Source: Deltaproteobacteria bacterium (GTDB taxonomy: Bacteria; Desulfobacterota; DSM-4660; Desulfatiglandales; Desulfatiglandaceae). Taken from it: a stretch of DNA of 57,505 nucleotides. The DNA lies in contig JAFDIS010000013.1 in assembly GCA_019307945.1 (NCBI GenBank), forward strand, positions 1-57,505, written 5' to 3'. Both the position numbers and the translations under genes were made by a program. Shown here piece by piece: positions 2,055 to 20,338 of this stretch. The notes beneath the pieces were generated by a model that was given only the letters and a program-made list of their open reading frames with translations, did no database searches and was not told the DNA's origin. Positions within the stretch are counted from its first letter, which is position 1, and every line of letters starts with the position of its first letter.

Positions 2055-2062
2055 GAAATTAC

Positions 2063-2139
<77 letters not shown>

Positions 2140-2149
2140 GCATTCGATT

Positions 2150-2178: not shown

Positions 2179-2179
2179 T

Positions 2180-2214
2180 AAAAAAGGCCCAGAGGCGTCC
2201 CCCTCTCCAGGGGA
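2180..2214 (-). terminator. Terminator after the histidine kinase operon
   Basis: Just downstream of the kinase stop, the minus strand forms a GC-rich stem (AGAGG pairing with CCTCT, flanked by CCC/GGG) followed by TTTTTT at 2186-2181. The T-run lies immediately before the tRNA promoter. Confidence 0.6.
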
Positions 2215-2218
2215 TTGT

Positions 2219-4338: not shown

Positions 4339-4402
4339 CTCAGCCGTTCCCCTGTCTCCTCCGTGGATGTTTCCCTGACCGGCGGGCCCATTGAGGACCC
4401 CC

Positions 4403-5323
4403 TCAGGGCCTGGGATGGCAGGATTCATGGATCTTTTTCAGGCGCTCGCGGGTCACGTGGGTGTAGATCTGCGTGGTGGAGATGTCCGCGTGCCCCAGCA
4501 TCACCTGCACCGATCTCAAATCGGCCCCCCGCTCCAGAAGGTGGCTCGCAAAGGAGTGTCTGAGGCCGTGCGGGGTAATGGACTTCCGGATCCCCGCAAG
4601 GGCCCCGTACTTCTTTATGATCTTCCAAAAACCCTGGCGCGTGAGAGGGCCGCCTCGCCGGTTGAGAAAGAGATAACCCGTATTTGAGGTCTTTCGCAGG
4701 GTCTCGCGGCCTTCACGCAGATAGTCCTGAAGCGCTTCGCGGGCCCTGTCGCCCATGGGCACCAGTCGTTCCTTGGCGCCCTTACCGAAGGTGCGGACAA
4801 AACCCACTTCCAGGTTCAAGTTCGAGATCTTCAGGCCCACCAGTTCCGAGACCCGGAGTCCGGTGGCGTAAAGCAGCTCCAGCATGGCCTGGTCCCGCTG
4901 CCCCAGGGGTGTCGAAGGATCGGGCCCGGCCAGGAGACGCTCCACTTCCTCGCGGGTCAGAACAGAGGGAAGGCGCCTCGACTGCCGGGGCGTGGGCAGC
5001 AGCCTCGCGGGATTGTCCTGAAGGATTCCCTCGGCTGTCAAGAATCGAAAAAACATCTTCAGCGCCGAGACGTTCCGGGCCAGGCTGCGCGCCGAAAGCG
5101 CTCCCGAAAGCCTGCCCACATAACGCCCCAGGGTGTCGTATGTCACCCGGTCCGGGGGGAGGCCCTCTTCCACCAGATAAGAGGTAAAGCGTGCGATATC
5201 CCGGGCGTATGCCTCTATGGTGTTTTCCGCAAGGCCGCGCTCGACACGCAGATAATGGAGAAAAGCGTCGGCCAGTCGATCCGTCGCCCCCTCCGCTTGC
5301 TTTGTGTCGCATCCGGTCTTCAA
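4403..5323 (-). CDS. xerD: XerD-type tyrosine recombinase
   Basis: 306 residues, the usual XerC/XerD length. It has an N-terminal core-binding domain (LADAFLHYLRVERGLAENTI) and a catalytic domain with the box I Arg in TGLRVSELVGL, Lys in GKGAKERLVPM, the HGLRHSFASHLLERGADLR box, LGHADISTTQIYTH with the terminal His/Tyr, and a C-terminal tail of the XerD sort. XerD works with XerC at dif sites to resolve chromosome dimers. It sits second in a minus-strand operon, 12 bases after the peptidase. A XerC/XerA role rather than XerD cannot be excluded from sequence alone. Confidence 0.93.
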   Translation of the reverse strand: MKTGCDTKQAEGATDRLADAFLHYLRVERGLAENTIEAYARDIARFTSYLVEEGLPPDRVTYDTLGRYVGRLSGALSARSLARNVSALKMFFRFLTAEGILQDNPARLLPTPRQSRRLPSVLTREEVERLLAGPDPSTPLGQRDQAMLELLYATGLRVSELVGLKISNLNLEVGFVRTFGKGAKERLVPMGDRAREALQDYLREGRETLRKTSNTGYLFLNRRGGPLTRQGFWKIIKKYGALAGIRKSITPHGLRHSFASHLLERGADLRSVQVMLGHADISTTQIYTHVTRERLKKIHESCHPRP

Positions 5324-5335
5324 GGCGCCTTTTCC

Positions 5336-6448
5336 TCAGAAATCGTAGACATGCCCGGCGTGTGTCAGGACCCTGGCCCCGTCCGGCTCCACCACCACCA
5401 TTTCCTCCAGCCTCACACCCCCCTTGCCGGGGATGTAGATCCCGGGCTCCACGGTCACCACCGCACCGGATTTCAGTGTCACCGCGTCCCGCGGGGCCAT
5501 GCGGGGCCGCTCGTGAGCCGCAAGGCCCACCCCGTGGCCCAGGGCGTGCCCGAAATAGGCCCCGAAGCCCGCCTCGCGGATGATATCGCGGGCCACCGCG
5601 TCGGGCAGCGTACTCAAGACACCATCCCGGATCTCGGCCATGGCCGCCAACTGGGCTTCCCTGACCGTCCTGTAGATCTTCCTGAACAACTCATCGGGCC
5701 CGTCAAGGAATACCGTGCGGGTCATGTCGCAGCAATACCCGTGGAGCTTCAAGCCCACGTCCAGGACGATCGCCTCTCCGACCTTCAACGGCCTCTGCGT
5801 GGGTACCGCATGGGGGAGCGCACCATTGGGCCCCGAGGCCACAATGGGCGGGAATGCCAGCCCTTCAGCCCCCGCCTCCCACGCGAGATTCTCGATCCTT
5901 CGTGCCACGGCCCGCTCCGTCATGCCCGGCCGCAGGTCCTCCACGACCTCGTCCAGGACGCGGCCCATGAGACGAGCCGACTCCTCGACGGCCCGAAGTT
6001 CCTGGGCGTCCTTGACCTCCCTCAGTCCCTCTACGATCCCCTCCAGGGGCTCGAGACGCACCGGCGGCGAGAGGCCGTCGATCTTTTCCCGCACCCGCTG
6101 ATACAGGTTCCATGTCACCCAGTCAGGCTCGAAGCCCACGACCCGGCACCCCATTTCCGCAAGGAGTCCCGGCAACCGTCCAAGCAGACCCTCCGCGGGC
6201 ACTTGCACCTCGAAGAGAGGCGCCTCCCGCTTGGCCTCCTCCCCGTAGCGGGAATCGGTCACCAGAACGCGTCGATCCTCTCTGATCAAAAGAGAACCGG
6301 ACGATTCGGTCATCTGCATGTCGGTCGCCCTGAACCCCGATAGGTAGCGCCTGTTTTCGGGCTGAAGAATCCAGACCGTGTCCGCGGGGGATTCCTTCAG
6401 CTTCTCCATGAGTCTGTGCAGGCGTAGCCCGTGGTCGAATTCAAGCAT
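5336..6448 (-). CDS. M24B metallopeptidase (Xaa-Pro aminopeptidase/dipeptidase)
   Basis: 370 residues. The N-terminal creatinase-like domain (1-130) is followed by the pita-bread catalytic domain. Metal ligands are visible in order: Asp in LDVGLKLHGYCCD (first and second Asp), His in GHALGHGVGL, Glu in VEPGIYIPG and Glu in VRLEEMVVVE. The family cleaves X-Pro bonds in cytoplasmic peptides and uses two Mn or Co ions. It is first in the operon pepQ/P-xerD-unknown-kinase, with a promoter about 60 bases upstream. Aminopeptidase (PepP) and dipeptidase (PepQ) cannot be separated by eye. Confidence 0.93.
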   Translation of the reverse strand: MLEFDHGLRLHRLMEKLKESPADTVWILQPENRRYLSGFRATDMQMTESSGSLLIREDRRVLVTDSRYGEEAKREAPLFEVQVPAEGLLGRLPGLLAEMGCRVVGFEPDWVTWNLYQRVREKIDGLSPPVRLEPLEGIVEGLREVKDAQELRAVEESARLMGRVLDEVVEDLRPGMTERAVARRIENLAWEAGAEGLAFPPIVASGPNGALPHAVPTQRPLKVGEAIVLDVGLKLHGYCCDMTRTVFLDGPDELFRKIYRTVREAQLAAMAEIRDGVLSTLPDAVARDIIREAGFGAYFGHALGHGVGLAAHERPRMAPRDAVTLKSGAVVTVEPGIYIPGKGGVRLEEMVVVEPDGARVLTHAGHVYDF

Positions 6449-6506
6449 GGGAAAGCCCTCGTGGTCTCAGGATTGGGTGGATCGGAAGGCGCGGCCCGGG
6501 AGAAAT

Positions 6507-6535
6507 ATTTTATCAAAGCAACGGACCGAATGCAA
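6507..6535 (-). promoter_or_regulatory. Sigma70 promoter of the peptidase-xerD-kinase operon
   Basis: On the minus strand TTGCAT (6535-6530), 17 bases, TAAAAT (6512-6507). It points into the peptidase gene, whose ATG is at 6448. Confidence 0.6.
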
Positions 6536-6583
6536 ACCGCCCGGGGGCAGAAGCGACCCCCCCCTATTTAGGCCGCCTGCCCG

Positions 6584-7522
6584 TTACCGGAATTCATAGG
6601 TGAGGCCCAGTCCGATACTGTCCTTACCCCCGGCCAGCAGGCCCAGATGAAGGCGGTCCCCGAGACCCCGGCGGTAGGCATCGCGCACCCTGCGGTTGTG
6701 CTTGTGGGCGGCCCCCACGGCGCTGTAGATGTTTCCGCTGTACCAGCCTGCTTCGAGGAAGAGCAGCATGCCGCCCAGGACCTCGTGGTCCTGTTCAAAG
6801 GACTCCACGGCGGCCCATATGAAGAGACCGTTCACCAGAAAGGCCACTGCCGCGTCCCGGTACCGTCCGGTATATGCATGTCCCAGGCCCGGCACCACGG
6901 CCGCCAGCCCCCCCGCCAGGGCGGGGCTCTTTTGGGGGAGATTCCGCCCCTGGAGGCTTTTCTCCGCGAGGATTCGGGCGTTGAGAAAATCGCTCCCGCC
7001 GCTGCCCGCCCGGCGGAAGTACTCCGAGGCCTCCTCCCATCGGTCTTGCCTCATGCCGGTCCATCCGAGGCGGTACAGGGCCGCATATCGTAGATCGCTC
7101 CGCGGGTAATCCCGAATAAGCTTGCGGAAGTAGATCTCCGCCTCTTTCGGGACCCCCTGACGGTAGTAGGATTCTCCAATCAGGAAAAGCGCCTTGGCCC
7201 CTGATTCCGATGCCGGATAGGTCTTCAGGATATGACGGAATACCTCCCGGGCCTTTTCGTAGTGCCGGCCCATCAGGAGGCACAACCCCTTGAGCTCCTG
7301 TGCCAAGGGAACCTGGGTATCTTCAGGAAAAAAGTGGATGAAACGCTCGAATTCGGACACGGCGGCGTCGTACTCACCCTTGCTCATGAGATGCCGTGCG
7401 AAACCCAACTGTCCGTCCGCATCCAGTATAATCCTGCCCGCGAAGGCCCCCGGAGAAAAAAAAGCAAAAAGACATGCCAGGAAAAGGCAAACCGCCACGA
7501 TCCGGTGAAATGCCACCCCCAC
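6584..7522 (-). CDS. Exported TPR protein with C-terminal hydrophobic domain
   Basis: 312 residues from a GTG with GGAGG 8 bases upstream. A signal peptide (about 1-28: hydrophobic CLFLACLFAFF ending GAFA) is followed by about four tetratricopeptide-type repeats (residues 38-185). A region after residue 200 has a PGLGHAYTGRYRDA motif and two hydrophobic segments (AVAFLVNGLFIWAAV and GGMLLFLEAGWYS). The TPR half resembles YbgF/BamD-like periplasmic scaffold proteins; the C-terminal motif occurs in membrane proteins of unknown function. It probably acts in or at the envelope. It is transcribed divergently from the RNase gene and appears monocistronic. Confidence 0.8.
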   Translation of the reverse strand: MGVAFHRIVAVCLFLACLFAFFSPGAFAGRIILDADGQLGFARHLMSKGEYDAAVSEFERFIHFFPEDTQVPLAQELKGLCLLMGRHYEKAREVFRHILKTYPASESGAKALFLIGESYYRQGVPKEAEIYFRKLIRDYPRSDLRYAALYRLGWTGMRQDRWEEASEYFRRAGSGGSDFLNARILAEKSLQGRNLPQKSPALAGGLAAVVPGLGHAYTGRYRDAAVAFLVNGLFIWAAVESFEQDHEVLGGMLLFLEAGWYSGNIYSAVGAAHKHNRRVRDAYRRGLGDRLHLGLLAGGKDSIGLGLTYEFR

Positions 7523-7676
7523 TTTTCCATCCTCCCCGCAGGAATCCCCCCCACCCCTGTGCGCCCGGGGGGGGTGGTGCGATACCGAGGCCGTCTTGTG
7601 CCCGTTACGCAGACGCCGGTCAACATCCGGACCCTAACGGAGGCCGGGCGACAAGTCAAGCCGCGCCCGAGGAGTG

Positions 7677-7706
7677 TTGACAGAAGCTGGGAGGGATGTC
7701 TAGTAT
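7677..7706 (+). promoter_or_regulatory. Sigma70 promoter of the RNase II-family gene
   Basis: TTGACA (7677-7682), 18 bases, TAGTAT (7701-7706). It drives rightward transcription with a leader of about 210 bases before ATG 7927. The intergenic region 7523-7676 to the left holds a G-run but no other signal I can name. Confidence 0.6.
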
Positions 7707-7789
7707 GATGAGGTTTTTGGTTTTCATCCGGAAATGGTTTCTTACGTAATGCCGAAGCCCTCTCTTCTCTCAGCGACTTTCTGTTGAGG

Positions 7790-7930
7790 GTGGCCGAATT
7801 GGACTGCTACCGGTCCTTCCCTTCTCTTTCGCGCTTGCGTAAACTCCACCACGGCCGGATCCATTTCCGTCATTGGAGCGGGATTGAATACCAGAGAGTG
7901 GAAAGGACGCCCCGGCTGCATCCGCCATGA
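7790..7930 (+). CDS. Possible small leader ORF coupled to the RNase gene
   Basis: A 46-codon frame from GTG 7790 (or TTG 7784) ends with a TGA that overlaps the RNase ATG as ATGA. The frame is open back to a stop at 7709-7711, so a longer version is possible, but there is no ATG. The product would be basic and rich in Arg and His (SLSRLRKLHHGRIHFRHW). No good Shine-Dalgarno site precedes the RNase ATG itself, which fits coupled translation from this ORF. It resembles no family I know and could be fortuitous. Confidence 0.3.
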   Translation: MAELDCYRSFPSLSRLRKLHHGRIHFRHWSGIEYQRVERTPRLHPP

Positions 7931-9921
7931 CCCAGGGAAGAGTCGTAGAATACATAGACCAGGGCCGCTTCGTGTGCGCCGTCTGCCTTCAGGACAAGGG
8001 CGGCAGGCTTCACCTGCTCACCCTGAATCGCCGGGAGGTAAATATTCCGCCCAAGCGGGCCCTTTCCATCTCCCGGGAGTCCATCCCCGTGGACCGGCCC
8101 CGTGAAGAGATCCTGGACCGGCTCCGGCGCGTCGAAGAGGCGCGCTCCAGCCTCAAGGAACAGGTCAACGTGCAGGAACTCTGGGAACTGATCCACGACG
8201 AGCAGGAGAGCTTCGACCATCGCTACCTGGCCCAGCTCTGTTTCGGTGAGCAAATCACGGACGACCACTGCTCCGCACTGATGAGGGCCCTTTTCGAAGA
8301 CCGCCTCCATTTCAAGTTGAAAGACGGTCGTTTCCTCCCCCACAGCCTGGAAAAGGTGGAGGCGCTGATCAAACAGCGCGAGGAGGAAGCGATCCGCGAA
8401 GAACGCCTGCGGCAGGGAAGCCTCTGGATCAAGGGATTGACGGAAGGCCGCGAAACGGATCCTCCCGCCTGTGCAGAGGAGATCGTGGAGGTCCTGAAGC
8501 AGCTTGCGCTCCACGGCAAGGAGGCGCCTGATTACAAGTTCGGCGCGGAACTCCTCTCGAGGGCCGGCACCCCCGGCGGGCTCAGGGCCGCCAGGCGCCT
8601 CCTCGTGCGGATGGGCGTCTGGGAAGAGGACGAAAATCTCGATCTGATCCGGCTTGAAATCCCTACCGATTTTCCCGAATCCGCGCTCGAAGAATCAGAG
8701 CGCCTGGCCCGGAGGCCGTTCTCCGGGGAGGGCAGGGAGGACCTCAGAGACCTTCCGGTGATCACCATCGACGGTCCTGCCACCCTGGACTTCGACGACG
8801 CCTTGAGTGTGGTGTTCGATGGGGATGACGTAGTCGTGGGGATTCACATCACGGACGTGGCCGCCCTGATCCCGCCCGACTCTCCCGTGGACCGTGAGGC
8901 CCTCCTGCGCGCATCTTCGCTTTACCTCCCCGGGCGCCAGGTCCCTATGATTCCCCCCGATCTGTCCCAGGAGGCCCTGAGCCTCAAAGAGGGGTGTGAC
9001 CGGCCCGCATTGTCGCTTCTTACCAGGTTCGACAGTGAGGGGAACCTGAAAGAACATCGTTTCACCACCAGCCTGATCCGGGTAAAAAAACGCATGACTT
9101 ATGACGAAGTCAACGAGACCCTGTCCTCTGACCCATCCCTTCGGGCGCTCCACCGCCTCAGCGTGCGTCTGCGCAACAGGAGGGAAGAGCAAGGGGCGCT
9201 GCAGCTCTCTGTGCCGGAGCTCATTTTCCTGGTCGAGGAAAACGGTCTGTCCGTGAGACTACTGGAGCAGGAGACGCCTTCGCGCAACATCATCGCCGAG
9301 TTCATGATCCTGTACAACGCGCTTGCCGCCCGACTCTGCAAGGAGGAAGGGATTCCAGTGCTCTATCGCACCCAGGAAGCGCCCTCCGAGAGGCTCGAGG
9401 TGGACGAGTGGGGATATCTGTACTATGTATTTCGTCAACGCAGAAAGCTCTATCCGCTGAAGATGGACACCGAACCCGGCGCCCACGCGGGTCTGGGCCT
9501 CGACGCCTACACCCAGGCCACTTCCCCGATCCGGCGCTACCTCGACCTGGTGGTACAACGCCAGATCCAGGGGTTTCTGACGGGCGCGGGCCCGGTGTAC
9601 ACGGAGGAGACACTGGGGCGGATCCGGCTCTCCGTAGAGCCCGTGCTGCGGAATCTCTTACGCGTGCGGGTCAACCAGATGAGATACTGGACCCTCAAAT
9701 ACCTTCGACAGCAGGGCCGCCGTGCCTACAGGGCCTTCGTGCTGGACGTACTCAAGTCCCGCTACCGGGTGGTGCTCACGGACCTCCTTTTCGTGACGGA
9801 AGTCAAACGAAACGAGGGCCCCACCCTTTCCCCGGGCCGGCCGCTATGGGTGTTGTTGTCCAAGGCGGATCCATGGGAAGACATCGTGGAATTTGAGATC
9901 ACCGATGCGCCCCAATCCTGA
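7927..9921 (+). CDS. RNase II/R-family (RNB domain) exoribonuclease
   Basis: 664 residues. An N-terminal 240-residue region with winged-helix character precedes the RNB catalytic domain (about 270-580). The domain shows the acidic metal-binding motif (ITIDGPATLDFDDALSV with its Asp cluster) and the conserved Arg motif TSPIRRYLDLVVQRQI. Only a short, divergent S1-like tail follows. RNB enzymes degrade RNA 3' to 5' in the cytoplasm. The protein lacks the two cold-shock domains of classical RNase R/II, so it belongs to the divergent RNB group seen in deltaproteobacteria and cyanobacteria. Its ATG overlaps the stop of a small upstream frame. Confidence 0.9.
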   Translation: MTQGRVVEYIDQGRFVCAVCLQDKGGRLHLLTLNRREVNIPPKRALSISRESIPVDRPREEILDRLRRVEEARSSLKEQVNVQELWELIHDEQESFDHRYLAQLCFGEQITDDHCSALMRALFEDRLHFKLKDGRFLPHSLEKVEALIKQREEEAIREERLRQGSLWIKGLTEGRETDPPACAEEIVEVLKQLALHGKEAPDYKFGAELLSRAGTPGGLRAARRLLVRMGVWEEDENLDLIRLEIPTDFPESALEESERLARRPFSGEGREDLRDLPVITIDGPATLDFDDALSVVFDGDDVVVGIHITDVAALIPPDSPVDREALLRASSLYLPGRQVPMIPPDLSQEALSLKEGCDRPALSLLTRFDSEGNLKEHRFTTSLIRVKKRMTYDEVNETLSSDPSLRALHRLSVRLRNRREEQGALQLSVPELIFLVEENGLSVRLLEQETPSRNIIAEFMILYNALAARLCKEEGIPVLYRTQEAPSERLEVDEWGYLYYVFRQRRKLYPLKMDTEPGAHAGLGLDAYTQATSPIRRYLDLVVQRQIQGFLTGAGPVYTEETLGRIRLSVEPVLRNLLRVRVNQMRYWTLKYLRQQGRRAYRAFVLDVLKSRYRVVLTDLLFVTEVKRNEGPTLSPGRPLWVLLSKADPWEDIVEFEITDAPQS

Positions 9922-9957
9922 CACCGGCGAGGGAGCGGGTCCCGCCCGGGCTGCGTT

Positions 9958-11463
9958 TCAATGCCCCGGAACCAGCCTTACCAGGAATCGGGCGATCACC
10001 TCCTCGCCCCGGCTCGCCAAGATCTCCCATACCTCCCCTTTCTTTGCCAGCGAGTAGCGCTTGAGCAGATCCGAACCCGTGTCGATCAAGTACCCGCGGT
10101 CTTCTCCCGTATTGTTCTTCCAGTCTCCCACGAACCCCTTGAAATTGACCGTCACGTCCGCCGTTTGGGGGGAGGGGGGATAGAGATCCAGGATTTTCAT
10201 ACGCTCTCCCCGGACCAATTCCAGTGTCTCGTTCTGCCCCAGGAGGATCCGGTACCCCTTGGCCTCCACCACGAGATAGGTGCCCTGGGGCAGCCGGGAG
10301 GCGGGGGCCCTGACGGGTTGTCCGCGGGAGTGGATGCGCACGGGTATTTCCGCGAACTTTTGGTGGTCCTTGCGGACCACGATCGCCGTGTTTCGCCGGA
10401 TGCAGAAGGACTTTCTGAAATCGTGCAGTTCCCCGTAGCCCAGGATGTCCAGACTCAAGCCCCGCTCGTAATTGGCCTCGATATGGGAGACATAAAGGGA
10501 GTCGCCGCTCCTCAGCATGACACGTTCTCCGGGCCTCACCACGATGGGCGTGTCGTTGTTGATGGAGAGCACCAGGTACTTTAGCGCCGGGGGTTCGGAG
10601 CGAAATCCCGGTGTCTCGGGAATGATCCCGAACATCCTCATGAAGGCGTTGATCACCAGGTTGTGGTATCGGACCTTCAGATCGATGCTCGGGAGAAACT
10701 TGGAGGTCTCCACGCCGAAGGCGGGGATATGGTGGTGGGTCAGGGCATAATAGGTGGCCGACTTTCGCTGCTCCTTGTGGCGACTGTCCGGAGCGCCCGT
10801 GCGCGTGTTGTTGAAATGAAACCGGTAGAGTTCGTTTTCAATATGGGTATTGACCTCTCGAATGACCTCCCGGGCCATTTCCCCCAGCCTGATGGTCCGC
10901 CGGGATCCGGGAATCGTGTATTCTTCGCAGTCGGCGATGATGGACTGCCCGAAGCGCGTGGGCCCCCGCCATTTGCTGATGGGCTTCGGATAATAGTACC
11001 CGGATCCATCGTGGAGATTTAACAGGTAGTCGCTCTCCCCTATCAGTTTCTTGAGGATGGAGACGATCCGGTCTTCCATGCTGGGGACCGGCGGCGCCGG
11101 GGCGAACTTTCGGTTCATGTCACCGTGAGGCCCCCTGTGGTTGAGGAGGATGGAGTAAAAATTGGCCCGTGGAACCACGATGAGGTTTCCCTTTTCCAGG
11201 CTCATGTCCGCATAAAGATCCGCGGACAGGAACCCTCCGGGCTCATTGCCCTGGATGCCGCCGATAAGCATAAGGGTCTTTCCCGGTTTCCGGCCCCGAA
11301 TCTTGTAAACATTCAATTCATAGGCCGTATCGGGAAAATAGGTCAGGTGCTCGCGCCTGGCCGAGGCACGCCCCGGAAACAGCAGGAGCAGGCAAAGCAG
11401 AATCGCCCACCCGAGTGCCCCGTTCGCCCTGTGACGCCGGTCAAGCATCGTTTCCCACTTCAA
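9958..11463 (-). CDS. M99-family D,L-carboxypeptidase, Csd4/Pgp1-like
   Basis: 501 residues with a signal peptide (ILLCLLLLFPGRASA, about residues 20-36). The M14-like catalytic domain shows GGIQGNEPGG, where the first zinc ligand is Gln rather than His, followed by the Glu, and NLHDGSGYYYP with the third ligand His. The Gln-x2-Glu...His set and the NLHDGSG motif are those of Helicobacter Csd4 and Campylobacter Pgp1, which trim peptidoglycan tripeptides to dipeptides in the periplasm. The C-terminal 230 residues are beta-rich, as in Csd4. It overlaps the preceding coiled-coil gene by 23 bases and ends the purB-LDT-coiled coil-M99 run. The class assignment is strong; substrate is by homology. 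Confidence 0.85.
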   Translation of the reverse strand: MKWETMLDRRHRANGALGWAILLCLLLLFPGRASARREHLTYFPDTAYELNVYKIRGRKPGKTLMLIGGIQGNEPGGFLSADLYADMSLEKGNLIVVPRANFYSILLNHRGPHGDMNRKFAPAPPVPSMEDRIVSILKKLIGESDYLLNLHDGSGYYYPKPISKWRGPTRFGQSIIADCEEYTIPGSRRTIRLGEMAREVIREVNTHIENELYRFHFNNTRTGAPDSRHKEQRKSATYYALTHHHIPAFGVETSKFLPSIDLKVRYHNLVINAFMRMFGIIPETPGFRSEPPALKYLVLSINNDTPIVVRPGERVMLRSGDSLYVSHIEANYERGLSLDILGYGELHDFRKSFCIRRNTAIVVRKDHQKFAEIPVRIHSRGQPVRAPASRLPQGTYLVVEAKGYRILLGQNETLELVRGERMKILDLYPPSPQTADVTVNFKGFVGDWKNNTGEDRGYLIDTGSDLLKRYSLAKKGEVWEILASRGEEVIARFLVRLVPGH

Positions 11464-12280
11464 ATTCCTTCTCTAGCAACAAACGCCCATCGTGGTTGTA
11501 GACCAATACGAACAGGCGAGTGGGTCTGTCACCCGGCCCTTCGAGGCGGAATTCTCCACGGACGGTCTTGAATCGCTTGATAAAGAAGATCTGCCCCCGT
11601 TTGAAGTTGACGGGCCTTCCATTGCGCAGGGTCGTTTTCGGATAGGACCTGAACCGGGGGGGATTCGATTTTTCGTCCACTGCAATCATGTGAACGTAAC
11701 CGCGTACGGGGCCCTCTCCTTCCCGGATATTGACTACCTTGAAGGCCACCCCGACCCGCTGGTCTTCGAACCGCGTGGTCAGGTCCCTGACATCCACCAT
11801 GGACTCAACGGATGATTCCGCCTTCCGAAGCTCCCCTGAAGCAACCTCCTTGGGGGGCGGTCCCGCATAGGGTGCCACAGTCCCCTGGGAGGCGGCCTTG
11901 GCCGCAACGACCGGGTTCGCCTTCCCTGTTTCCAACCCTGAGAGATATTCCTCTAAAAGGCCCACCTGTTGCTCAGCGCGGTACAGGTCTCTTTGAACCC
12001 TCTCGGCCTGGTCCCTGGCATCGGTCACCTCTTCCGAAAGCGCCTTGTTCTCCCGCCGGAGATCAAAATACCGGTTGATCACCAGGATGGAGGCCAGGAT
12101 GTAGAGAGCCAAAAAGAGACTCGCCCAGAACAGGATCCGGGGAGAGATCTCAAAGCGAAGCACACGCCCCACGCCCCTGACCACCATGACCGTCAGAGGC
12201 CCGTTGTAAGAAACGCCTACCTTCGGTTTGCGTTCCCGTTTTCGGCGATCTTTTTCCAGGTCTCCCGTCTGATCTTCCAC
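11441..12280 (-). CDS. Single-span inner-membrane coiled-coil protein of the cell-shape operon
   Basis: 279 residues from GTG 12280 (AGGGGG upstream), overlapping the L,D-transpeptidase gene by 64 bases. An ATG at 12187 would avoid the overlap and give 248 residues. It has a basic cytoplasmic N-terminus, one membrane span (ILFWASLFLALYILASILVI, about residues 48-67), a coiled coil (about 70-118), a Pro/Ala linker, and a conserved-looking periplasmic beta domain (about 155-279). I recognise no Pfam-type domain. Lying between an L,D-transpeptidase and an M99 peptidase, it is a good candidate scaffold that localises the two wall enzymes, as Csd5 does in Helicobacter. That role is inference. Confidence 0.75.
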   Translation of the reverse strand: MEDQTGDLEKDRRKRERKPKVGVSYNGPLTVMVVRGVGRVLRFEISPRILFWASLFLALYILASILVINRYFDLRRENKALSEEVTDARDQAERVQRDLYRAEQQVGLLEEYLSGLETGKANPVVAAKAASQGTVAPYAGPPPKEVASGELRKAESSVESMVDVRDLTTRFEDQRVGVAFKVVNIREGEGPVRGYVHMIAVDEKSNPPRFRSYPKTTLRNGRPVNFKRGQIFFIKRFKTVRGEFRLEGPGDRPTRLFVLVYNHDGRLLLEKEFEVGNDA

Positions 12281-13638
12281 CGCTTCCCCCTCTTCACCAG
12301 CAGAAGCACCTTCCTGCCGTAATCCTCGTAGGTGTCCGCCACATATCTCTGACGGAACCTGACCATGGCCTGTCCGGGCCCGGTCAATCGGATTTTCCGG
12401 CCCTCCACCAGGACACGGAGCTTACCGTACTTCCGATTCAGTCCCGCCTTGTACCGCCTCCACGCGGACCGGTTCATGCCCCGGGAACGGAAGGAGGAGT
12501 CGTAACAGGCCATGTAGGCATCAAGATCCTTGTCTTCCCATGCCCGCCGCCAGGTGCGGACGAACCGGGCGATCTCCTCTTTTACTTCCAGGGGTTTGAC
12601 CGGAGAAACGGCCCTCTTTCCTTCCTTGAAGAATTCCCCTACGATTTTCCAGGACGCGCTGTTTTTGGCCAGGTACAGCCGCTTTTCCCCGCTGCTGGTA
12701 AACCCGTTTCCCTGAAAGATCTGGTGAAATTTCGCCAGGACCACGCCGTTGACCTGAAAGAGTTCCAGCCCTTCAATCCGGACCCGGATCTTCTTATAAC
12801 GCATGAAAAGCCCGGCCTTGTATCGCTTCCAGGCGGCGAGATCCATCCCCCGGCCGTTGAAACTTCCGGCGTAGGCGCCGATATAGGCGTCGAGATCTCC
12901 CCGCTCCCACGCCGAGCGCCACCGCTCAAGCGACTCTTCGACACCGGCTGCCTCCCGCCTGCGGACCGCGTCCTCCACCCATTCGATCTTGTCCGTTATT
13001 ATCACGGGAGTCCGCCTGAGACGGATATAGCGCGAAAGTGTTTCGATGCTGTGGTTTTCCAGTACCACACATCCGTTCGTGTCCCGCGGCTTGAGCATCT
13101 TGTTCGTACCGTGGAACCAGATACCGTACCCCCCTCGACCCTCCAGTCGGTCCAGAGGATTGGGATAGTCGATGGGGTAGGCCCGCACACCGTAAGTCGA
13201 GGAAAGATCCTTTTCCGTGTAGGATTGGGTGAAGAAATAAACTCCTTCCGGAGTCTTGCGATCGTTTTTCCGCTGTTTCGGTCCGCCGTTTTCGCCCGTG
13301 GAGCAGGGGAAGACCACGGTGGGTCGGATGGACTCCCCCTTGTGAAACACCCAGACTTCCTGGGCCTCTTTGTCCACGACCACGGCGTGTTCACTTTCGA
13401 GCCCCGACCATTTCAAGAGGGCACGTGGGACCAGAGCGGCGCCAGCCGGGCATGAGGAGACAAAGAAAAACAGAAACAGGAACAGGCCGAAAAGGGGCAC
13501 AGTCCTTACGGCCCGCAACGGGCCGCCCCTTGGATCGCATTCCCCCCTCCCATACCCCGCGGGCTCCAGCAGCTTCTGCGCGGAACCGTTCCCGGTCGAA
13601 TTACCGGCGGCCCCGTTCAGTCCCTTCCCGATCCTCAT
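12217..13638 (-). CDS. YkuD L,D-transpeptidase-fold protein with two NTF2-like repeats, Csd6/Pgp2-like
   Basis: 473 residues from ATG 13638 (GAGGAG just upstream). A hydrophobic export signal ending VSSCPAGA could be a lipobox. The YkuD domain (about 85-230) has GIWFHGTN and DTNGCVVLEN with the catalytic His and Cys. Two tandem SnoaL/NTF2-like repeats follow, each starting with a W(R/x)xAWExxDLDAY pattern and RYKAGL. YkuD plus NTF2 is the architecture of Helicobacter Csd6 and Campylobacter Pgp2, which are L,D-carboxypeptidases acting after Csd4/Pgp1. Here the NTF2 unit is duplicated. It starts 7 bases after purB ends. The long N-terminal stretch before the signal suggests the true start may be further in. 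Confidence 0.82.
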   Translation of the reverse strand: MRIGKGLNGAAGNSTGNGSAQKLLEPAGYGRGECDPRGGPLRAVRTVPLFGLFLFLFFFVSSCPAGAALVPRALLKWSGLESEHAVVVDKEAQEVWVFHKGESIRPTVVFPCSTGENGGPKQRKNDRKTPEGVYFFTQSYTEKDLSSTYGVRAYPIDYPNPLDRLEGRGGYGIWFHGTNKMLKPRDTNGCVVLENHSIETLSRYIRLRRTPVIITDKIEWVEDAVRRREAAGVEESLERWRSAWERGDLDAYIGAYAGSFNGRGMDLAAWKRYKAGLFMRYKKIRVRIEGLELFQVNGVVLAKFHQIFQGNGFTSSGEKRLYLAKNSASWKIVGEFFKEGKRAVSPVKPLEVKEEIARFVRTWRRAWEDKDLDAYMACYDSSFRSRGMNRSAWRRYKAGLNRKYGKLRVLVEGRKIRLTGPGQAMVRFRQRYVADTYEDYGRKVLLLVKRGKRWKIRRETWKKIAENGNANRR

Positions 13639-13645
13639 GCGCTCC

Positions 13646-14935
13646 TCAGAACACCCGGTCGAAGATGTGGTCCACATATTTGAGGTGGTAGCGAAGGTCG
13701 AAGATTTCCTCGATTTCCTTTTCGGTCAAGATCTTCCGAAGATCCTCGTCCGCCAACAGGAGTTCCTTGAAGGGACGGCCGCTTTCCCATACCTTGAGCG
13801 CGTTTCGCTGGACCAGGACATAGGCATCCTGTCTTTCCAGGCCCTTTTCGGCGAGCCTGAGCAGGACCTGCTGGGAGAAGATCAGGCCTTTGGTCAGCTC
13901 CAGGTTTTCTTTCATCCGCTCCGGATGGACCACAAGCCCCTCCAGGATGCCCCGGAGCCTGTGGACCATGAAATCAGCCAGGATCGTGCTGTCCGGACCG
14001 ATGACCCGCTCCACGGAGGAGTGGCTGATATCCCTTTCGTGCCAGAGGGCCATGTTCTCCATGGCCGCCAGTGCATTGGAACGCAGCAGGCGCGCGAGCC
14101 CCGAGATGTTCTCCGAACCGATGGGATTTTTCTTGTGGGGCATGGCGGAGGAGCCCTTTTGCCCCTTGCCGAAGGGTTCCTCGGCCTCGAGGACCTCCGT
14201 TCTCTGCAGGTGCCGTATCTCCACGGCGATCTTCTCCAGACTGCCCCCCAGGACGGCCAGGCTGGTGAAATATTGGGCGTGACGGTCGCGCTGAATGATC
14301 TGGGTGGAGATTTCCGCAGGTCGCAAACCGAGCTTTCCGCAGGCCTTCTCTTCAATCTCGGGGGAAATATTGGCGAAGGTTCCCACGGCCCCGGAAATTT
14401 TTCCGTAGCTGATCACCTCACAGGCCTCTTCGAGCCGCCGCAGGTTCCGCTTCATTTCAGCGTACCACACCGCCAGCTTGAAACCGAAGGTGATGGGCTC
14501 TGCGTGGATGCCGTGGGACCGGCCGATCATTACCGTGGATTTATGCTCCATGGCCCTGGAGCGGATAACGCCCATCAAAGACTTGACCCCCCGGATGACC
14601 ATCTCCATGGCCTCCTTGAGGAGCAGGGCGAAGCTTGTGTCCAGGATATCCGAGGAGGTCAGGCCCATGTGAATGAACCGGGAGTCCGGACCCACGTGTT
14701 CGGCCACGTTGGTCAGAAACGCAATTACATCGTGCTTGGTCTCCTGCTCGATGGCCAGGATCCGATCCACCGAAAACGCCGCCCTTTTTCGTATAACCTC
14801 CGCCGAACTTTTTGGAATCAACCCCTTTTCCGCCATGGCGTCACATACGGCCAGTTCCACCTCGAGCCACTTGGCGTAGCGGTTTTCATCCTCCCAGATG
14901 CGTGCCATCTCGGGCCGCGTGTACCTCGGAATCAC
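13646..14935 (-). CDS. purB: Adenylosuccinate lyase
   Basis: 429 residues, normal length, from a GTG with GAGGAGGG upstream. The fumarase/aspartase-superfamily signature SSAMPHKKNP is present, with the TSSD and GRSHGIHAEPITFG active-site segments. It catalyses two steps of purine synthesis: removal of fumarate from SAICAR and from adenylosuccinate. It is first in a minus-strand run with the cell-wall genes, but this link is probably only positional. Confidence 0.97.
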   Translation of the reverse strand: MIPRYTRPEMARIWEDENRYAKWLEVELAVCDAMAEKGLIPKSSAEVIRKRAAFSVDRILAIEQETKHDVIAFLTNVAEHVGPDSRFIHMGLTSSDILDTSFALLLKEAMEMVIRGVKSLMGVIRSRAMEHKSTVMIGRSHGIHAEPITFGFKLAVWYAEMKRNLRRLEEACEVISYGKISGAVGTFANISPEIEEKACGKLGLRPAEISTQIIQRDRHAQYFTSLAVLGGSLEKIAVEIRHLQRTEVLEAEEPFGKGQKGSSAMPHKKNPIGSENISGLARLLRSNALAAMENMALWHERDISHSSVERVIGPDSTILADFMVHRLRGILEGLVVHPERMKENLELTKGLIFSQQVLLRLAEKGLERQDAYVLVQRNALKVWESGRPFKELLLADEDLRKILTEKEIEEIFDLRYHLKYVDHIFDRVF

Positions 14936-14969
14936 TTTCCGTCCCTCCTCACGTCCGTCCGCGGGGGCC

Positions 14970-15201
14970 TCAGGCCCCCCTGGCCGTGGCGATCACCGCC
15001 CGCATGAAGGCGAGCAGGTCGTCCGGCTTGCGGCTGGTCACCAGCTTGTCGTCCACCACCACCTCCTGTTCCACCCACCGGGCGCCGGCGTTGACCAGGT
15101 CGTCCTTGATTGCGAAGAGGCTCGTCACGGTCCGGTTCTTGAGGATGCCGGCCTCGGCCGGCATCCCCCCGGCTTGGCATATCTGGCGGGCCGTCCTCGG
15201 C
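14970..15201 (-). pseudogene. Truncated DJ-1/PfpI-family gene (C-terminal part only)
   Basis: The minus-strand frame ending at 14970 encodes the last 70-75 residues of a DJ-1/PfpI protein: ARQICQAGG, EAGILKNRTVTS, then AIKDDLVNAGARWVEQEVVVD and TSRKPDDLLAFMRAVI. Intact members are 170-190 residues. The N-terminal half is missing and the homology begins directly after the nfnB stop codon, so this looks like a deletion remnant. The nucleophile Cys is kept but the usual following His is Gln. A 7-bp perfect hairpin (GGGGGCC/GGCCCCC, 14963-14979) overlaps its stop. Confidence 0.75.
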
Positions 15202-16602
15202 CTACCACCCCCAGGTGAGGTACTTGTGGATGGAGTCCGAGGCCTTTCTGCCGGCGCCCATGGCCAGGATCACCGTGGCCTGGCCGGTGACGATGTCGCC
15301 GCCGGCCCACACGCCCTTCTTTGTGGTCTTGCCCGTCTCCGGGTCGGCCACGATGTAGCCCCACTTGTTGAGAGCGAGGCCCTCGGTTGTCTGGGTGAGC
15401 AGGGGGTTGGCCCCCGCGCCCACCGCTATGACCACAAGGTCGCACTCCATGGTAAACTCGGAGCCCTCCACCGGCACCGGCCGGCGCCTGCCGGACTCGT
15501 CCGGCTCTCCCAATTCCATCCGGATGCATTCCATGGCCTTGACCCTGCCCTGGTCGTCCCCGATGAAGCGCTTGGGGTTGGTGAGCAGGAAGAACTCGAT
15601 CCCCTCCTCCTCGGCATGGTGGATCTCCGCGGCCCTGGCGGGCATCTCCTCGCGGGACCTGCGGTAGACGATGCGCACCCGGTCCGCCCCCAGGCGCATG
15701 GCCGTACGGGCCGAGTCCATGGCCACGTTGCCCGCCCCCAGGACCACCACGTCCTTGCCCTTGACAATGGGGGTGTCGTACTCCGGGAACAGGTAGGCCT
15801 TCATGAGGTTGGCCCTGGTGAGGTACTCGTTGGCCGAGTAGATGCCGATGAGGTTTTCCCCGGGCACGTTGAGGAACCGCGGCAGGCCCGCGCCCACGCC
15901 CACGTAGACGGCGTCGTAGCCCTCCTCGAACAGTTCGTCCACGATCACGGTGCGGCCCACCACCACGTTGCACTGCACCTCCACACCCAGCCGTTCGAGA
16001 AAGTTCACCTCCTGGAACACGATCTCCTTGGGCAGCCGGAACTCGGGGATGCCGTAGACCAGCACCCCGCCGGGCTTGTGGAAGGCCTCGAACACGGTGA
16101 CATGGTGGCCCTTCAGCACCAAATCGCCGGCCACGGTGAGGCCGGAGGGCCCGGAGCCCACCACGGCCACGCGCTTGCCCGTGGGCTCGGCTTTGGGGGG
16201 GAGCTCGCCCTTGCCGTGGGCCCGCTCCCAGTCGGCCGCAAAGCGCTCAAGGTTGCCTATGGCTACCGGGTCGCCCTTCTTGGCCAGGATACACCTGCCC
16301 TCGCACTGGATCTCCTGGGGGCAGACCCGGCCGCAGACGGCCGGCAGGCTGTTGCGCTCCCAGATCTTGTGGATGGCCTTGGTGAATTCGCCCTCCCTGA
16401 TAAGCTTGATGAAGGCCGGGATTTCCACCGAGACGGGGCAGCCCTCGATGCAGGAGGGTTTCTTGCACTGCAGGCATCGCTCGGCCTCCTTGACGGCCTG
16501 CTCTTCCGTGTACCCCAGGGGCACCTCGTCGAAGTTGCGTTTCCTTACCTGGGGATCCTGTTCGGGCATGGGTTGCCTTGGGATCTTTTCCGCCTTTGCC
16601 AT
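15202..16602 (-). CDS. nfnB: NfnB/GltD-like FAD-NADP oxidoreductase subunit
   Basis: 466 residues. The N-terminal ferredoxin-like domain II has two Cys clusters (RCLQCKKPSCIEGCP and CGRVCPQEIQCEGRC). It is followed by FAD (VAVVGSGPSGLTVA) and NADP (VVVLGAGNVAMDSARTAMRLG) Rossmann motifs and a C-terminal AGGDIVTGQATVILAMGAG. The architecture is that of the small glutamate synthase subunit, but no gltB is nearby and an NfnA-type gene lies directly upstream. It is therefore called the large subunit of NADH-dependent reduced ferredoxin:NADP oxidoreductase, the flavin-based electron-bifurcating enzyme. The homologous insert inside the HdrA gene of this window is related. Confidence 0.88.
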   Translation of the reverse strand: MAKAEKIPRQPMPEQDPQVRKRNFDEVPLGYTEEQAVKEAERCLQCKKPSCIEGCPVSVEIPAFIKLIREGEFTKAIHKIWERNSLPAVCGRVCPQEIQCEGRCILAKKGDPVAIGNLERFAADWERAHGKGELPPKAEPTGKRVAVVGSGPSGLTVAGDLVLKGHHVTVFEAFHKPGGVLVYGIPEFRLPKEIVFQEVNFLERLGVEVQCNVVVGRTVIVDELFEEGYDAVYVGVGAGLPRFLNVPGENLIGIYSANEYLTRANLMKAYLFPEYDTPIVKGKDVVVLGAGNVAMDSARTAMRLGADRVRIVYRRSREEMPARAAEIHHAEEEGIEFFLLTNPKRFIGDDQGRVKAMECIRMELGEPDESGRRRPVPVEGSEFTMECDLVVIAVGAGANPLLTQTTEGLALNKWGYIVADPETGKTTKKGVWAGGDIVTGQATVILAMGAGRKASDSIHKYLTWGW

Positions 16603-16670
16603 ACTATACTATCCTCCCCTTTATGCTCCTCCCTTGCGGCACGCCGCAGGGGCTGTTGTCCTCAGCCGGT

Positions 16671-17504
16671 TCACGCCTGGCACTGACAGGTGTGCTGCTC
16701 GTAGGCCAGGGCCTCTTCCTCCTTGTAGGAGGACAAGCGCTGCATGAGCTCGTCGAAGTCCACCTGGTGGCCGTCGAACTCCGGGCCGTCCACGCAAGCG
16801 AACTTGGTCTCGCCGCCCACGGTGACACGGCAGCAGCCGCACATGCCCGTGCCGTCCACCATGATGGGGTTGAGGCTCACCATGGTCTTCACCTTGTACT
16901 CGGCGGTGAGCTTGCAGAGGAACTTCATCATGGGCACCGGCCCGATGCCCACCACCAGTTTCACGTCCTTCTCTTCGAGAATCTGCTTGAGCACCTCGGT
17001 GACAAAGCCGTGGTGGCCGTAAGAGCCGTCGTCCGTGCACACGTGAAGCTCGTGGCTGGCCGCCTTCATCTTGTCCTCCAGGATGAGAAGGTCCTTGGTC
17101 CGGGCGCCTATAACGGCTATGACGTGGTTGCCCAGATCCTTGAGGCCCCGGGTGATGGGGTGGAGCACCGCCACGCCCGTGCCGCCGCCCACGCAGACCA
17201 CGGTGCCCAGCTTTTCCAAATGGGTGGGGCTTCCCAGGGGGCCGATGACGTCCTGGAACTGCTCGCCCCTCTGCATGGACTTGAACAGGGCCGTGGATTT
17301 CCCCACCACCTGGTAGATGATGGTGATTGTCCCCTTGGTGGGGTCCGTGTCGGCCATTGTGAGGGGAATGCGCTCCCCTGTTTCGTTGGCCTTCAGGATG
17401 ACAAACTGGCCAGGTTTGGCCTTGCGGGCGATGAGGGGGGCACTGATCTCGTTGAGCACCACCGTGCCTCCGGCCATTTCTTCCCGTCGCAATATCTCGA
17501 ACAT
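16671..17504 (-). CDS. nfnA: NfnA-like ferredoxin-NADP reductase subunit
   Basis: 277 residues. A ferredoxin reductase-type FAD domain (about 1-95, with RIPLTMADTD), an NAD-binding domain (CVGGGTGVAVLHPI) and a C-terminal [2Fe-2S] site (GTGMCGCCRVTVGGETKFACVDGPEFDGH) match the NfnA/dihydroorotate dehydrogenase electron-transfer type. GGAGGT lies 6 bases before the ATG. It is followed by nfnB after 68 bases, the standard nfnAB order. The complex couples NADH and reduced ferredoxin to NADP reduction. Confidence 0.88.
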   Translation of the reverse strand: MFEILRREEMAGGTVVLNEISAPLIARKAKPGQFVILKANETGERIPLTMADTDPTKGTITIIYQVVGKSTALFKSMQRGEQFQDVIGPLGSPTHLEKLGTVVCVGGGTGVAVLHPITRGLKDLGNHVIAVIGARTKDLLILEDKMKAASHELHVCTDDGSYGHHGFVTEVLKQILEEKDVKLVVGIGPVPMMKFLCKLTAEYKVKTMVSLNPIMVDGTGMCGCCRVTVGGETKFACVDGPEFDGHQVDFDELMQRLSSYKEEEALAYEQHTCQCQA

Positions 17505-17560
17505 CTCATGACCTCCGCATAAATTTTTATTCGTGTCTCCTTATCACAGGGCGCGGAAGG

Positions 17561-18075
17561 GTGTCAAAGGAAACCATCACCATCTGGAGCTGCTTGACCT
17601 GCGCCCAGTGCGGTGTCCGTTGCCCCGCGAACATCGATTTTCCTGATTTTGTCCGCCGCATGAGGGACCGGGCCCACGGCCTGGGCTACGACGGTGTCCG
17701 GCGCACAACGCTATGCTGCAGACCGTCACGGCCATTCAGGCCCAGGGCGCCCATCAGAAACGCACCGCCTGGGTGGGGGACGGTAAGATCGCACAAAAAG
17801 GCGACGTGTTTTATTTCGTGGGCTGAAGCCCCTATTTCGACGTGGTCTTTCGGGACATAGGAGCGGGTTCTGTCCGGAACACGCGCAATATCCTGGAAAT
17901 CCTCAACCGCGCGGGTATCGAACCCGTGGTGAGCGACGAGGAGAGTGGGGCCACCAACGTGCCCGGCGTGTTCGCAGGCGGCGACGTGGTCAGCAGGCCC
18001 CATATCGCCATCCGGGCCAAGCTGTCGCGGGAAATTGAGTCTCTCGGCAAGAAACTGGATCGAGAGATTCTCTGA
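17561..18075 (+). pseudogene. Decayed HdrD-like Fe-S oxidoreductase relic with a selenocysteine-type TGA
   Basis: Frame 1 (from GTG 17561 to about 17700) encodes the end of a ferredoxin domain (SCLTCAQCGVRCPANIDF). A one-base frameshift near 17701 then moves to the frame that continues with AHNAMLQTVTAIQAQ and VFYFVG-TGA-SPYFDVVF to SDEE. In HdrB/HdrD CCG-domain proteins this TGA position is the first ligand Cys. At about 17944 the sequence jumps to an unrelated tail with VPGVFAGGDVV, typical of GltD/HdrA flavoproteins, and ends at 18075. Frameshift, missing CCG half and chimeric tail make it a pseudogene. It is transcribed away from nfnA. Confidence 0.72.
17824..17861 (+). other. Selenocysteine TGA with SECIS-like hairpin in the relic
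   Basis: After TGA 17824-17826 there are 17 bases and then GGTC (17844-17847). GGTC lies in the loop of a possible hairpin with the CGA/TCG core (17838-17840 and 17850-17852) extended by G.U pairs; CCTAT/ATAGG (17831-17835 and 17857-17861) can form an alternative outer stem. Bacterial SECIS elements sit directly after UGA with a GU in the apical loop. Folding was done by eye only. Confidence 0.5.
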
Positions 18076-18103
18076 CCCGGCTTCCCACCCGAGCCAAATC
18101 CGG

Positions 18104-18158
18104 AGCCCCCGGAGACGCGACCCTCAGCACTGTCTCGAAATCGCGGGCGCCGGGGGCT
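18104..18158 (+). terminator. Long hairpin terminator after the HdrD-like relic
   Basis: A 9-bp perfect stem AGCCCCCGG/CCGGGGGCT (18104-18112 and 18150-18158) with an inner GCGA/TCGC pairing is followed by TTCGTTT. It survives downstream of the relic and implies the ancestral gene was transcribed rightward. The remaining bases to 18224 show nothing else. Confidence 0.55.
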
Positions 18159-18224
18159 TTCGTTTCATGCATAAACTTTAGGCCGGCCCCACCTTCCCCT
18201 CTTCTCCCCGGCTCGGTTCAACAT

Positions 18225-18569
18225 TCAGGCAAGCACCTCTTCCAGGTCTTCGAAGGCATCCTCGATGAGATAGAGGACCTGGTCCAGTTCGTTCAACCGC
18301 CTGGCCAGGAGGTGCTCCCGGGCCTGGGCCTTCAATGAGACCAGGCGCTCCACATGGACCCCGAGCCTTGACCGGATGTTTTCCACCACGTTCGGATCTT
18401 CGTGAATGTCCGCCACATCATCGATCAGGTCGTAGAGTGAGACGTCGCGCTCGGCAAGTTCCGGACGACCCACCTGGTGGAGCATGCCGGCAGTGCCTGG
18501 AAAGAGTTCGATAAAGGGCTTTTCGTAAAAAGGGATCAGGCGGATGTCAATCTGCATGCACCGGCTCAT
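18225..18569 (-). CDS. Small protein of unknown function downstream of GNAT
   Basis: 114 residues, acidic, largely helical, no signal peptide or membrane span. The C-terminal half (about 65-114) is a coiled-coil-like helix rich in Leu and Glu. GGGGGTGA lies about 8 bases before the ATG, and the start is 6 bases after the GNAT stop, so the two form an operon. No family recognised. Confidence 0.6.
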   Translation of the reverse strand: MSRCMQIDIRLIPFYEKPFIELFPGTAGMLHQVGRPELAERDVSLYDLIDDVADIHEDPNVVENIRSRLGVHVERLVSLKAQAREHLLARRLNELDQVLYLIEDAFEDLEEVLA

Positions 18570-18575
18570 AGAAAA

Positions 18576-19229
18576 TCACCCCCGGGTTCCTTCACGACCG
18601 GGAACCCCGCGCGGCGGGGCCTCCGGATCCACGGACACGAGGCGCTTTCGAAGCTCAAGGGCCTCCTGGCCGTTTGGATAAAAATCCTGCCTCCTGCCCA
18701 CGAGTTCGTAACCCCTCCGGGCGAAGAGTTTTCGGGCACGCAGGTTTCCCGAGGCCGTATGAAGCACCAGGGTCTCCGCCCCGAGACTCAGAGCCGCCTC
18801 CTCGGCTGTCCGAAGCAGAAAAGGCCCCACCCCGCGGCCCTGCTCGGCCGGAGACACGGCGATTGCCAGGAGTTCCGCATCCCGGGGACTGAAGGAAGAA
18901 CCAATGGAAGGCCCCACCATGGCAAAGCCCACCGGCCTTCGTCCTTCCACCGCGATCAGGGTCACGGTAAGCCCCAGATCGAACCACTGCCGCAGGATGC
19001 GATCATAAGGGCCGTACACCCGGAACACGCTACGGCTCACCTTTTTCACAAATGAGAAGTCCTGGGGCCGGGCCATCCGCACGCGAAACAGGCCCGGTCC
19101 GGCCCCACCCCGAACGGTTCTGCCGGGGGCTGAGGGGATCGGCGCATTCCCGCTCCGGCGGGCGCGCCTCAAGCGGTCCATACGTTTGTGCTCTCCGTAT
19201 TTTCCAAACCTTCCACGATTGCCCATCAC
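18576..19229 (-). CDS. GNAT-family acetyltransferase, RimI-like
   Basis: 217 residues as the full frame; internal ATGs (19181 and later) may be the true start because the first 45 residues are basic low-complexity sequence. The acetyl-CoA site is clear: ELLAIAVSPAEQGRGVGPFLL with the Q/R-x-x-G-x-G/A loop, then the C-terminal NLRARKLFARRGYELVGRRQDFYP segment that is typical of RimI N-alpha-acetyltransferases. The substrate could be a protein N-terminus or a small molecule. It is co-transcribed with the small gene at 18225. Confidence 0.85.
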   Translation of the reverse strand: MMGNRGRFGKYGEHKRMDRLRRARRSGNAPIPSAPGRTVRGGAGPGLFRVRMARPQDFSFVKKVSRSVFRVYGPYDRILRQWFDLGLTVTLIAVEGRRPVGFAMVGPSIGSSFSPRDAELLAIAVSPAEQGRGVGPFLLRTAEEAALSLGAETLVLHTASGNLRARKLFARRGYELVGRRQDFYPNGQEALELRKRLVSVDPEAPPRGVPGREGTRG

Positions 19230-19288
19230 CCTAAGGGTCGAAAAGGCCCGAACGTGCCATGCGGCGCATGCCTCTACCTGGACACCAT

Positions 19289-20338
19289 CTATTCCAAAAT
19301 CCGCCAGAACGGGGCCTGGGAGTCCCGGGCTTGCTCCATGACTCTGCCAGTAAGCCCGGGGTCCGCCCCGGAGAGCAGCGCCTGCTTGTCACACTGCGTC
19401 TGATCGCTCAGTTCCCGGAGGACCGCCTTGACCGATTCTCTCAGCCCCGACAGGTGATATCCTCCCTCCAGGGTCACCACCAGCTTCCCGCCGCAGGAGG
19501 CATCCGCCAGGTCCATGACCGATCTGGTAAGACCGGCAAATCCCTCGGGCGTGACACGCATCCCGCCCAGGGGATCGCCTTCATAGATGTCGAATCCCGC
19601 CGAGACCAGGATCAATCCGGGGTCGAAGGACCTTCCGATCGGCGCAAGGACCTGTTCGAAGATGGCCATGTATTCACCGTCGCCATGGCCCACGGAGAGC
19701 GGAATGTTCACCGTGAATCCCAGGCCGTCACCAACGCCTGTCTGGGCCGCGCTGCCCGTACCGGGATAATAGGGAAACTGGTGCGTGGAAAAGTATAGGA
19801 CCGTGGAGTCATCTTCGAAGGCGTGCTGCGTGCCGTTTCCGTGGTGAAGATCCCAGTCGATAATGAGGACCCGCTCGATCCCGTGACTTCGTTGAGCGTA
19901 CCTGGCGGCGATCACCACATTGTTGAAAAGGCAAAAACCCATGGCCCGTTCACGCTCAGCATGGTGACCGGGGGGCCTCACCAGGGCAAAGGCATTGTCC
20001 AGTTCCCCTTCAAGCACCCGGGAGACCGCCTCGCAAAGCCCCCCCGCGGCCAGGAGGGCCGCATCATAAGAGCCGGGTGAGGTGGCCGTGTCCGGATCCA
20101 GGGATACGAAATCCCGCCCCCGGGTAGCCGCCACCCGCTCCAGGTATCGCGGCGTGTGAAACGAGAGGAGTTCTTCCTCCGTGGCCTCCCTCGTGGGAAT
20201 CTCGTGAAAGGCCCCCGCCATGTCGGACCCGTCCAGCATGTCGTAGATGACCCGGAGCCTATCCGGGCTCTCCGGATGCCCGACCCCGGGCAGGTGGTCC
20301 ATGAATCGCACATCTCTTACTATTCCGGTCCTTCTCAT
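19289..20338 (-). CDS. Histone deacetylase-superfamily (AcuC/AphA-like) amidohydrolase
   Basis: 349 residues. Class II HDAC-like motifs are visible: VRPPGHHAERERAMGFCLFNN with the His pair, IIDWDLHHGNGTQHAF with the zinc Asp and His, STHQFPYYPGTG, the zinc Asp in VSAGFDIYEGDPLGG and LEGGYHLSGL. Bacterial members deacetylate acetyl-lysine proteins (AcuC) or acetylpolyamines (AphA) using zinc. Its proximity to a GNAT gene on the same strand is suggestive of an acetylation/deacetylation pair, but the 59-base gap and lack of other evidence leave this as a guess. Confidence 0.92.
   Translation of the reverse strand: MRRTGIVRDVRFMDHLPGVGHPESPDRLRVIYDMLDGSDMAGAFHEIPTREATEEELLSFHTPRYLERVAATRGRDFVSLDPDTATSPGSYDAALLAAGGLCEAVSRVLEGELDNAFALVRPPGHHAERERAMGFCLFNNVVIAARYAQRSHGIERVLIIDWDLHHGNGTQHAFEDDSTVLYFSTHQFPYYPGTGSAAQTGVGDGLGFTVNIPLSVGHGDGEYMAIFEQVLAPIGRSFDPGLILVSAGFDIYEGDPLGGMRVTPEGFAGLTRSVMDLADASCGGKLVVTLEGGYHLSGLRESVKAVLRELSDQTQCDKQALLSGADPGLTGRVMEQARDSQAPFWRILE

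Follow-up and report, generated by a model that had tools for sequence, protein, structure and literature searches.

A remnant beside nfnAB, very probably the scar of a deleted hdr-type operon, with a TGA at a conserved cysteine position

Genes and fragments at the nfnAB locus

The window (the whole stretch of DNA that was analysed, 57,505 nucleotides) is the entire contig C118 of a 4.16-Mb draft genome, which is 98.5% complete. The region next to its nfnAB genes was translated in three frames, then compared by tblastn with a 375-aa HdrD-like protein encoded at locus L051 of a relative. Two collinear matches revealed that positions 17579-17943 code for residues 55 to ~176 of this protein. The locus comprises the following features:

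13646-14935, minus strand: adenylosuccinate lyase-like flank, 73-76% identical to its counterpart beside the intact operon in L049, L051, and L078
15202-16602, minus strand: nfnB-type gene (GltA/NfnB large subunit; TIGR01316, 629 bits)
16671-17504, minus strand: nfnA-type gene (FAD/NAD-binding subunit; NF004862, 413.6 bits)
17505-17578, minus strand: nfnA upstream region with a TGTCAAA-GAAA element (TTGACA on the minus strand), the source of a false GTG start at 17561
17579-17698, plus strand: hdrD-like fragment 1, residues 55-94, TIWSCLTCAQCGVRCP...GYDGV (frame 2; tblastn, 70% identity to the L051 protein)
17697-17699, plus strand: frameshift with one base missing, placed by alignment; one base, 17698, is common to both frames
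17698-17943, plus strand: hdrD-like fragment 2, residues 95-176, first CCG domain (frame 1; tblastn, 60% identity)
17824-17826, plus strand: TGA where the first CCG domain has its first Cys, interpreted as a nonsense mutation (all 80 relatives examined carry Cys; no SECIS)
17935-18021, plus strand: C-terminal fragment of a GltD-like, NAD(P)-binding protein (op_GltD2 residues 518-545, 82% identity)
18022-18075, plus strand: final 18 codons plus stop codon of the last gene in the operon (ungapped comparison with 18 relatives scored 38-57 for 13 of them; 2000 shuffles reached 34 at most)
18576-19229, minus strand: GNAT acetyltransferase (PF00583), with the same gene order downstream of the intact operon in L049, L051, L078, and L080
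19289-20338, minus strand: HDAC-like gene, likewise in the same order in these four loci

The preliminary description of this DNA had proposed a dead HdrD-like gene next to nfnAB, with a frameshift near 17701 and a chimeric jump at about 17944, and these proposals were borne out. Homology to HdrD runs through two frames and ends at a chimeric join, the nfnA-type gene adjoins the remnant, and frame alignment refined the shift to the single base missing at 17697-17699, where relatives encode Val-Pro and the two codons share one base in the remnant. At the second site, the sequence is common to both sides over 17935-17943, so that the final three codons of fragment 2 are equally assignable to the GltD-like fragment. 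The proposed GltD/HdrA-type tail is GltD-type after the join, as claimed, but consists of fragments of two different genes rather than one. A gene beginning at 17561 (apparent GTG start, VSKETI) was not upheld: this is nfnA upstream sequence, whose TGTCAAA-GAAA element also precedes nfnA in six relatives (G028, G032, G015, G021, G065, and G008), and hdrD homology begins only at 17579.

The intact L051 protein is HdrD/GlpC-like, combining two ferredoxin clusters with CCG domains; it shows a Fer4_8 domain (PF13183) and two PF02754 (CCG) stretches. The remnant shares 60-70% identity with it, and is devoid of the first ferredoxin motif, the CC motif, and the second CCG domain. Downstream, the GltD-like piece matches several relatives at 74-81% in blastn, and the last piece represents a gene of 272 aa in L051 (C-terminus in the window, KLSREIESLGKKLDREIL; in L096, RVSPEIQALSKKLDQEIL). 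The reading frame is preserved across both internal joins, for which the chance is 1 in 9, and this could point to a fusion that was once translated.

The intact operon in relatives and the history of the locus

In the relatives, those with names being metagenome genomes of Desulfobacterales or Deltaproteobacteria, the operon reads hdrA (Sec), hdrD (Cys), hdrA (Sec), hdrA, flpD, a gltD-like gene, and a small last gene. The source genes of all three remnant pieces lie there in the same order on one strand, and the order hdrD-flpD-gltD-like-last was found in 18 of 22 named loci. Of the first 37 family genomes, 20 had an intact hdrD ortholog with Cys at the codon in question, as did three of nine further ones. 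The L051 operon (1256-12500) was seen to contain two Sec-HdrA genes, a third HdrA, an FlpD with a C-terminal TrmB-like match, the GltD-like gene, and the small last gene, for which no Pfam match was found. As in the window, adenylosuccinate lyase and GNAT/HDAC-like flanks bracket the operon in L051 and L049 (L078 and L080 designate these same two contigs). Measured against the L078 coordinates, ~6.2 kb is absent between pieces 1 and 2, and ~0.8 kb between pieces 2 and 3, amounting to ~7 kb.

The arrangement of the window recurs in genome G028 (L163, 5045-11102), where lyase, nfnB, nfnA, GNAT, and HDAC follow one another, the nfnA ortholog is 88% identical, and no hdr remnant was detected at the locus; the window therefore represents the same replacement with the scar left. 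G007, of the same genus as G028, has kept an intact hdrD. Nfn genes and hdr operon have been swapped at this locus within the family, possibly within one genus (G028 and G007). It was also observed that G018 and G033 carry an hdr operon at the locus where G028 and the window (13646-20338) carry nfnAB. Among 46 family genomes, hdrD was found in 23, this nfnA type in 14, and both in G008 and G061; mutual exclusion of the two across the family is only a tendency.

The fragments also differ from the orthologs in constraint. Nine of 55 residues that are invariant in 20 orthologs are changed in the remnant, compared with 0-3 per ortholog when each was left out in turn; with 36 orthologs, the figures are six of 46 and at most two. 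One of the nine, N to D at 17935, is more readily attributed to the junction than to drift. The remnant is the sequence most distant from the outgroups, and has undergone more amino-acid change than any ortholog. Judged by leave-one-out invariant columns and codon-position ratios, a comparison of present-day sequences only, the remnant is under relaxed constraint.

The stretch of ~500 bases is thus very probably a decayed residue of an electron-transfer operon lost by deletion, and one that encodes no functional protein. This is the best explanation of what is observed: three homologous pieces in collinear order, the synteny of the flanks, the lesions, and the absent SECIS. Disabling lesions, lost constraint, and collinear remnants at an orthologous locus are what is expected of a pseudogene or deletion scar. 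Under the proposed history, an hdr-type operon at the locus would have been deleted, leaving a 497-base scar. The part upstream of hdrD codon 55 would have been lost in this lineage, with nfnAB now in its place. An internal deletion of ~6.2 kb would have fused mid-hdrD with the terminal part of the gltD-like gene, and another of ~0.8 kb would have fused this part with the end of the last gene. The remnant would then have drifted: one base would have been lost, a Cys codon would have become TGA by nonsense mutation, and several invariant residues would have been replaced. We infer this order of events, and likewise a link between the arrival of nfnAB and the loss of the operon.

Since the draft genome is in 185 contigs, the joins or the frameshift might be artefacts of a chimeric assembly, and the operon might be intact in the organism. 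This is very improbable. The three fragments keep the order and strand of the intact operon between the flanks of the same locus, the nfnAB arrangement was found independently in G028, and several invariant-site substitutions are not assembly effects. Moreover, the 98.5% complete genome yielded no second hdrD ortholog (best match, 38%) and no second copy of the gltD-like gene.

The TGA at 17824

The preliminary description correctly placed the TGA at the first ligand Cys of the CCG domain, and took it for a former Sec codon. Most likely, however, it is an ordinary nonsense mutation at a position that is cysteine in all known relatives. Cys was found in 80 of 80 relatives examined, from Desulfobacterota to Chloroflexota, Zixibacteria, and an archaeon (78 scored by script, two by eye from the printed sequence). 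The case that would have refuted the preliminary reading, a lack of relatives with Cys here, did not arise, but Cys in all of them accords no less well with an ordinary Cys-to-stop mutation. An intact Sec version of HdrD, which the preliminary description had suggested seeking, was not found: across the 46 family genomes, FVG-U-x-PY(F/Y)D matches the remnant only, the remaining 45 genomes being free of it, and it has no match among 84,980 species genomes, a collection in which the Cys version does occur. A Sec/Cys pair of homologs is accordingly lacking in these sets. The frame is not open on both sides of the UGA, being broken at 17697-17699, and the only start in register with hdrD fragment 1 lies within the nfnA upstream region. 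A pattern for CUGH-type Sec, TGYTGAGGNCAY, was dropped as too short for specificity. Separately, another HdrD-like gene (L185, G065:C156, ~1146) has a TGA in frame at a site not occupied by Cys (GEYGA-TGA-RRV), which likely reflects a nonsense mutation or an error in the sequence.

The host does decode Sec. Its genome contains a tRNA-Sec (G000:C24, 73 bits), eight HdrA genes with one TGA (Sec-HdrA; an NDC-x-U motif was seen in seven), and four FlpD genes with one TGA; HdrA and FlpD are known Sec families (PMC1794560, PMC13188914). Two live Sec codons were observed within the window. One (39580-39578, minus strand) lies in an HdrA-GltD fusion of 1506 codons (FPTNDCAMU) and is followed at 22 nt by a 7-bp hairpin; this fusion is paralogous to parts of the deleted operon; the other (35016-35014, minus strand) lies in an FlpD/MvhD-type gene (VSGUHPGDCHY) with a hairpin 23 nt downstream and a GGA loop. 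The proposal that Sec served in at least three Hdr-type proteins is true genome-wide, but gains no support from this locus: the genome uses Sec, but at 17824 not demonstrably.

A bacterial SECIS has been modeled with an apical loop of 3-9 nt bearing G in its first two positions, 16-37 nt after the UGA, and an upper stem of 4-16 bp with an energy of at most -7.5 kcal/mol (PMC13188914). A scan by these published rules found no such element downstream of the remnant TGA; the best hairpin has -2.2 kcal/mol, a value also reached by 40% of the TGA triplets across the window. The hairpin with GGTC named in the preliminary description is no better than chance (z = 0.4), and its apical loop begins 12 nt past the TGA, outside the range of the model (PMC13188914). 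Its GGTC stems from the codons of a conserved Val-Val (GTG GTC) in DVVFR, and is likewise present in the Cys ortholog L020. In the same scan, Cys orthologs gave +4 to -1.3 kcal/mol or no hairpin, to which the remnant is close, Sec-HdrA controls gave hairpins of 6 to 8 bp, located at 22 or 27 nt, with energies of -6.5 to -12.5 kcal/mol, and the Sec-FlpD of the window gave a 7-bp hairpin at 23 nt with -4.5 kcal/mol. The true Sec genes of this genome have 6- to 7-bp hairpins at 22-23 nt.

The gene might nonetheless have been a true selenoprotein before its death, with Sec in place of the first CCG-domain Cys existing only in this lineage shortly before the loss, and with a SECIS that has since decayed. 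In favour of this, the TGA coincides precisely with a ligand Cys, Sec is decoded in this genome (with a tRNA-Sec, eight Sec-HdrA, and Sec-FlpD), and the relatives' operon includes two Sec-HdrA genes. Thirty one-step stop gains are possible in the fragment, and five of them turn Cys into TGA; the position therefore favours Sec about sixfold before priors, and a chance stop on a Cys is, by the same count, unremarkable. Against this, Sec occurs in none of the 80 relatives, no Sec version exists in the 45 other family genomes or the 84,980 species genomes, no SECIS was found, and the neighbouring Arg, invariant in 20 orthologs, was lost too. The Sec motif of the GlpC selenoprotein, UGH, occupies a different position (PMC13188914). 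With other invariant residues also broken, a former Sec codon is unsupported, and there is only a slight chance that it existed. The lost operon had two Sec-HdrA genes, and its HdrD was a Cys protein.

Slimmer still is the chance that readthrough of the TGA yields a small chimeric protein from the fused frame 17713-18075. Frame 1 is open over both joins save for this codon, but it lacks a SECIS, its cluster ligands are lost, its 77-aa tail has no family match, and its amino-acid change exceeds that of every ortholog.

Comparison with known systems

Reading the TGA as a nonsense mutation removes a false selenoprotein claim and exposes a trap, in that a Cys-to-TGA mutation in a decaying gene mimics a Sec codon when the genome decodes Sec. 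The locus appears to represent an intermediate stage, with an intact hdr operon that contains Sec on one side and, on the other, the compact nfnAB that replaces it. As regards how electron bifurcation evolved in sulfate reducers, this is of modest interest. A Sec version of HdrD, if true, would represent a Sec position in the Hdr/GlpC family absent from those found in the publications examined.

The Sec-HdrA proteins (CxxU) of this genome and of the relatives' operon belong to the same operon in the relatives, and the same organism decodes Sec; in their genes, a hairpin with a GG loop is conserved at 22 or 27 nt past the TGA, whereas the remnant has none. The Sec-containing Fe-S oxidoreductase (GlpC) of Deltaproteobacteria is of the same broad kind, and also occurs in hdrA operons (PMC1794560, PMC13188914). 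The listed Sec motif of this GlpC-like selenoprotein is UGH (PMC13188914), whereas the remnant has its TGA at the first CCG Cys (FVG-TGA-SPYFD) without a SECIS. The Cys-containing HdrD/GlpC-like protein of the Desulfobacterota hdrA-hdrD-hdrA-hdrA-flpD-gltD operon (L051, L078, and others) is homologous over residues 55-176. In contrast to this protein, the remnant is truncated at both ends, frameshifted, and stopped at the first CCG Cys, yet it occupies the same locus, between the same flanks, as its intact counterpart in L051 and L049.
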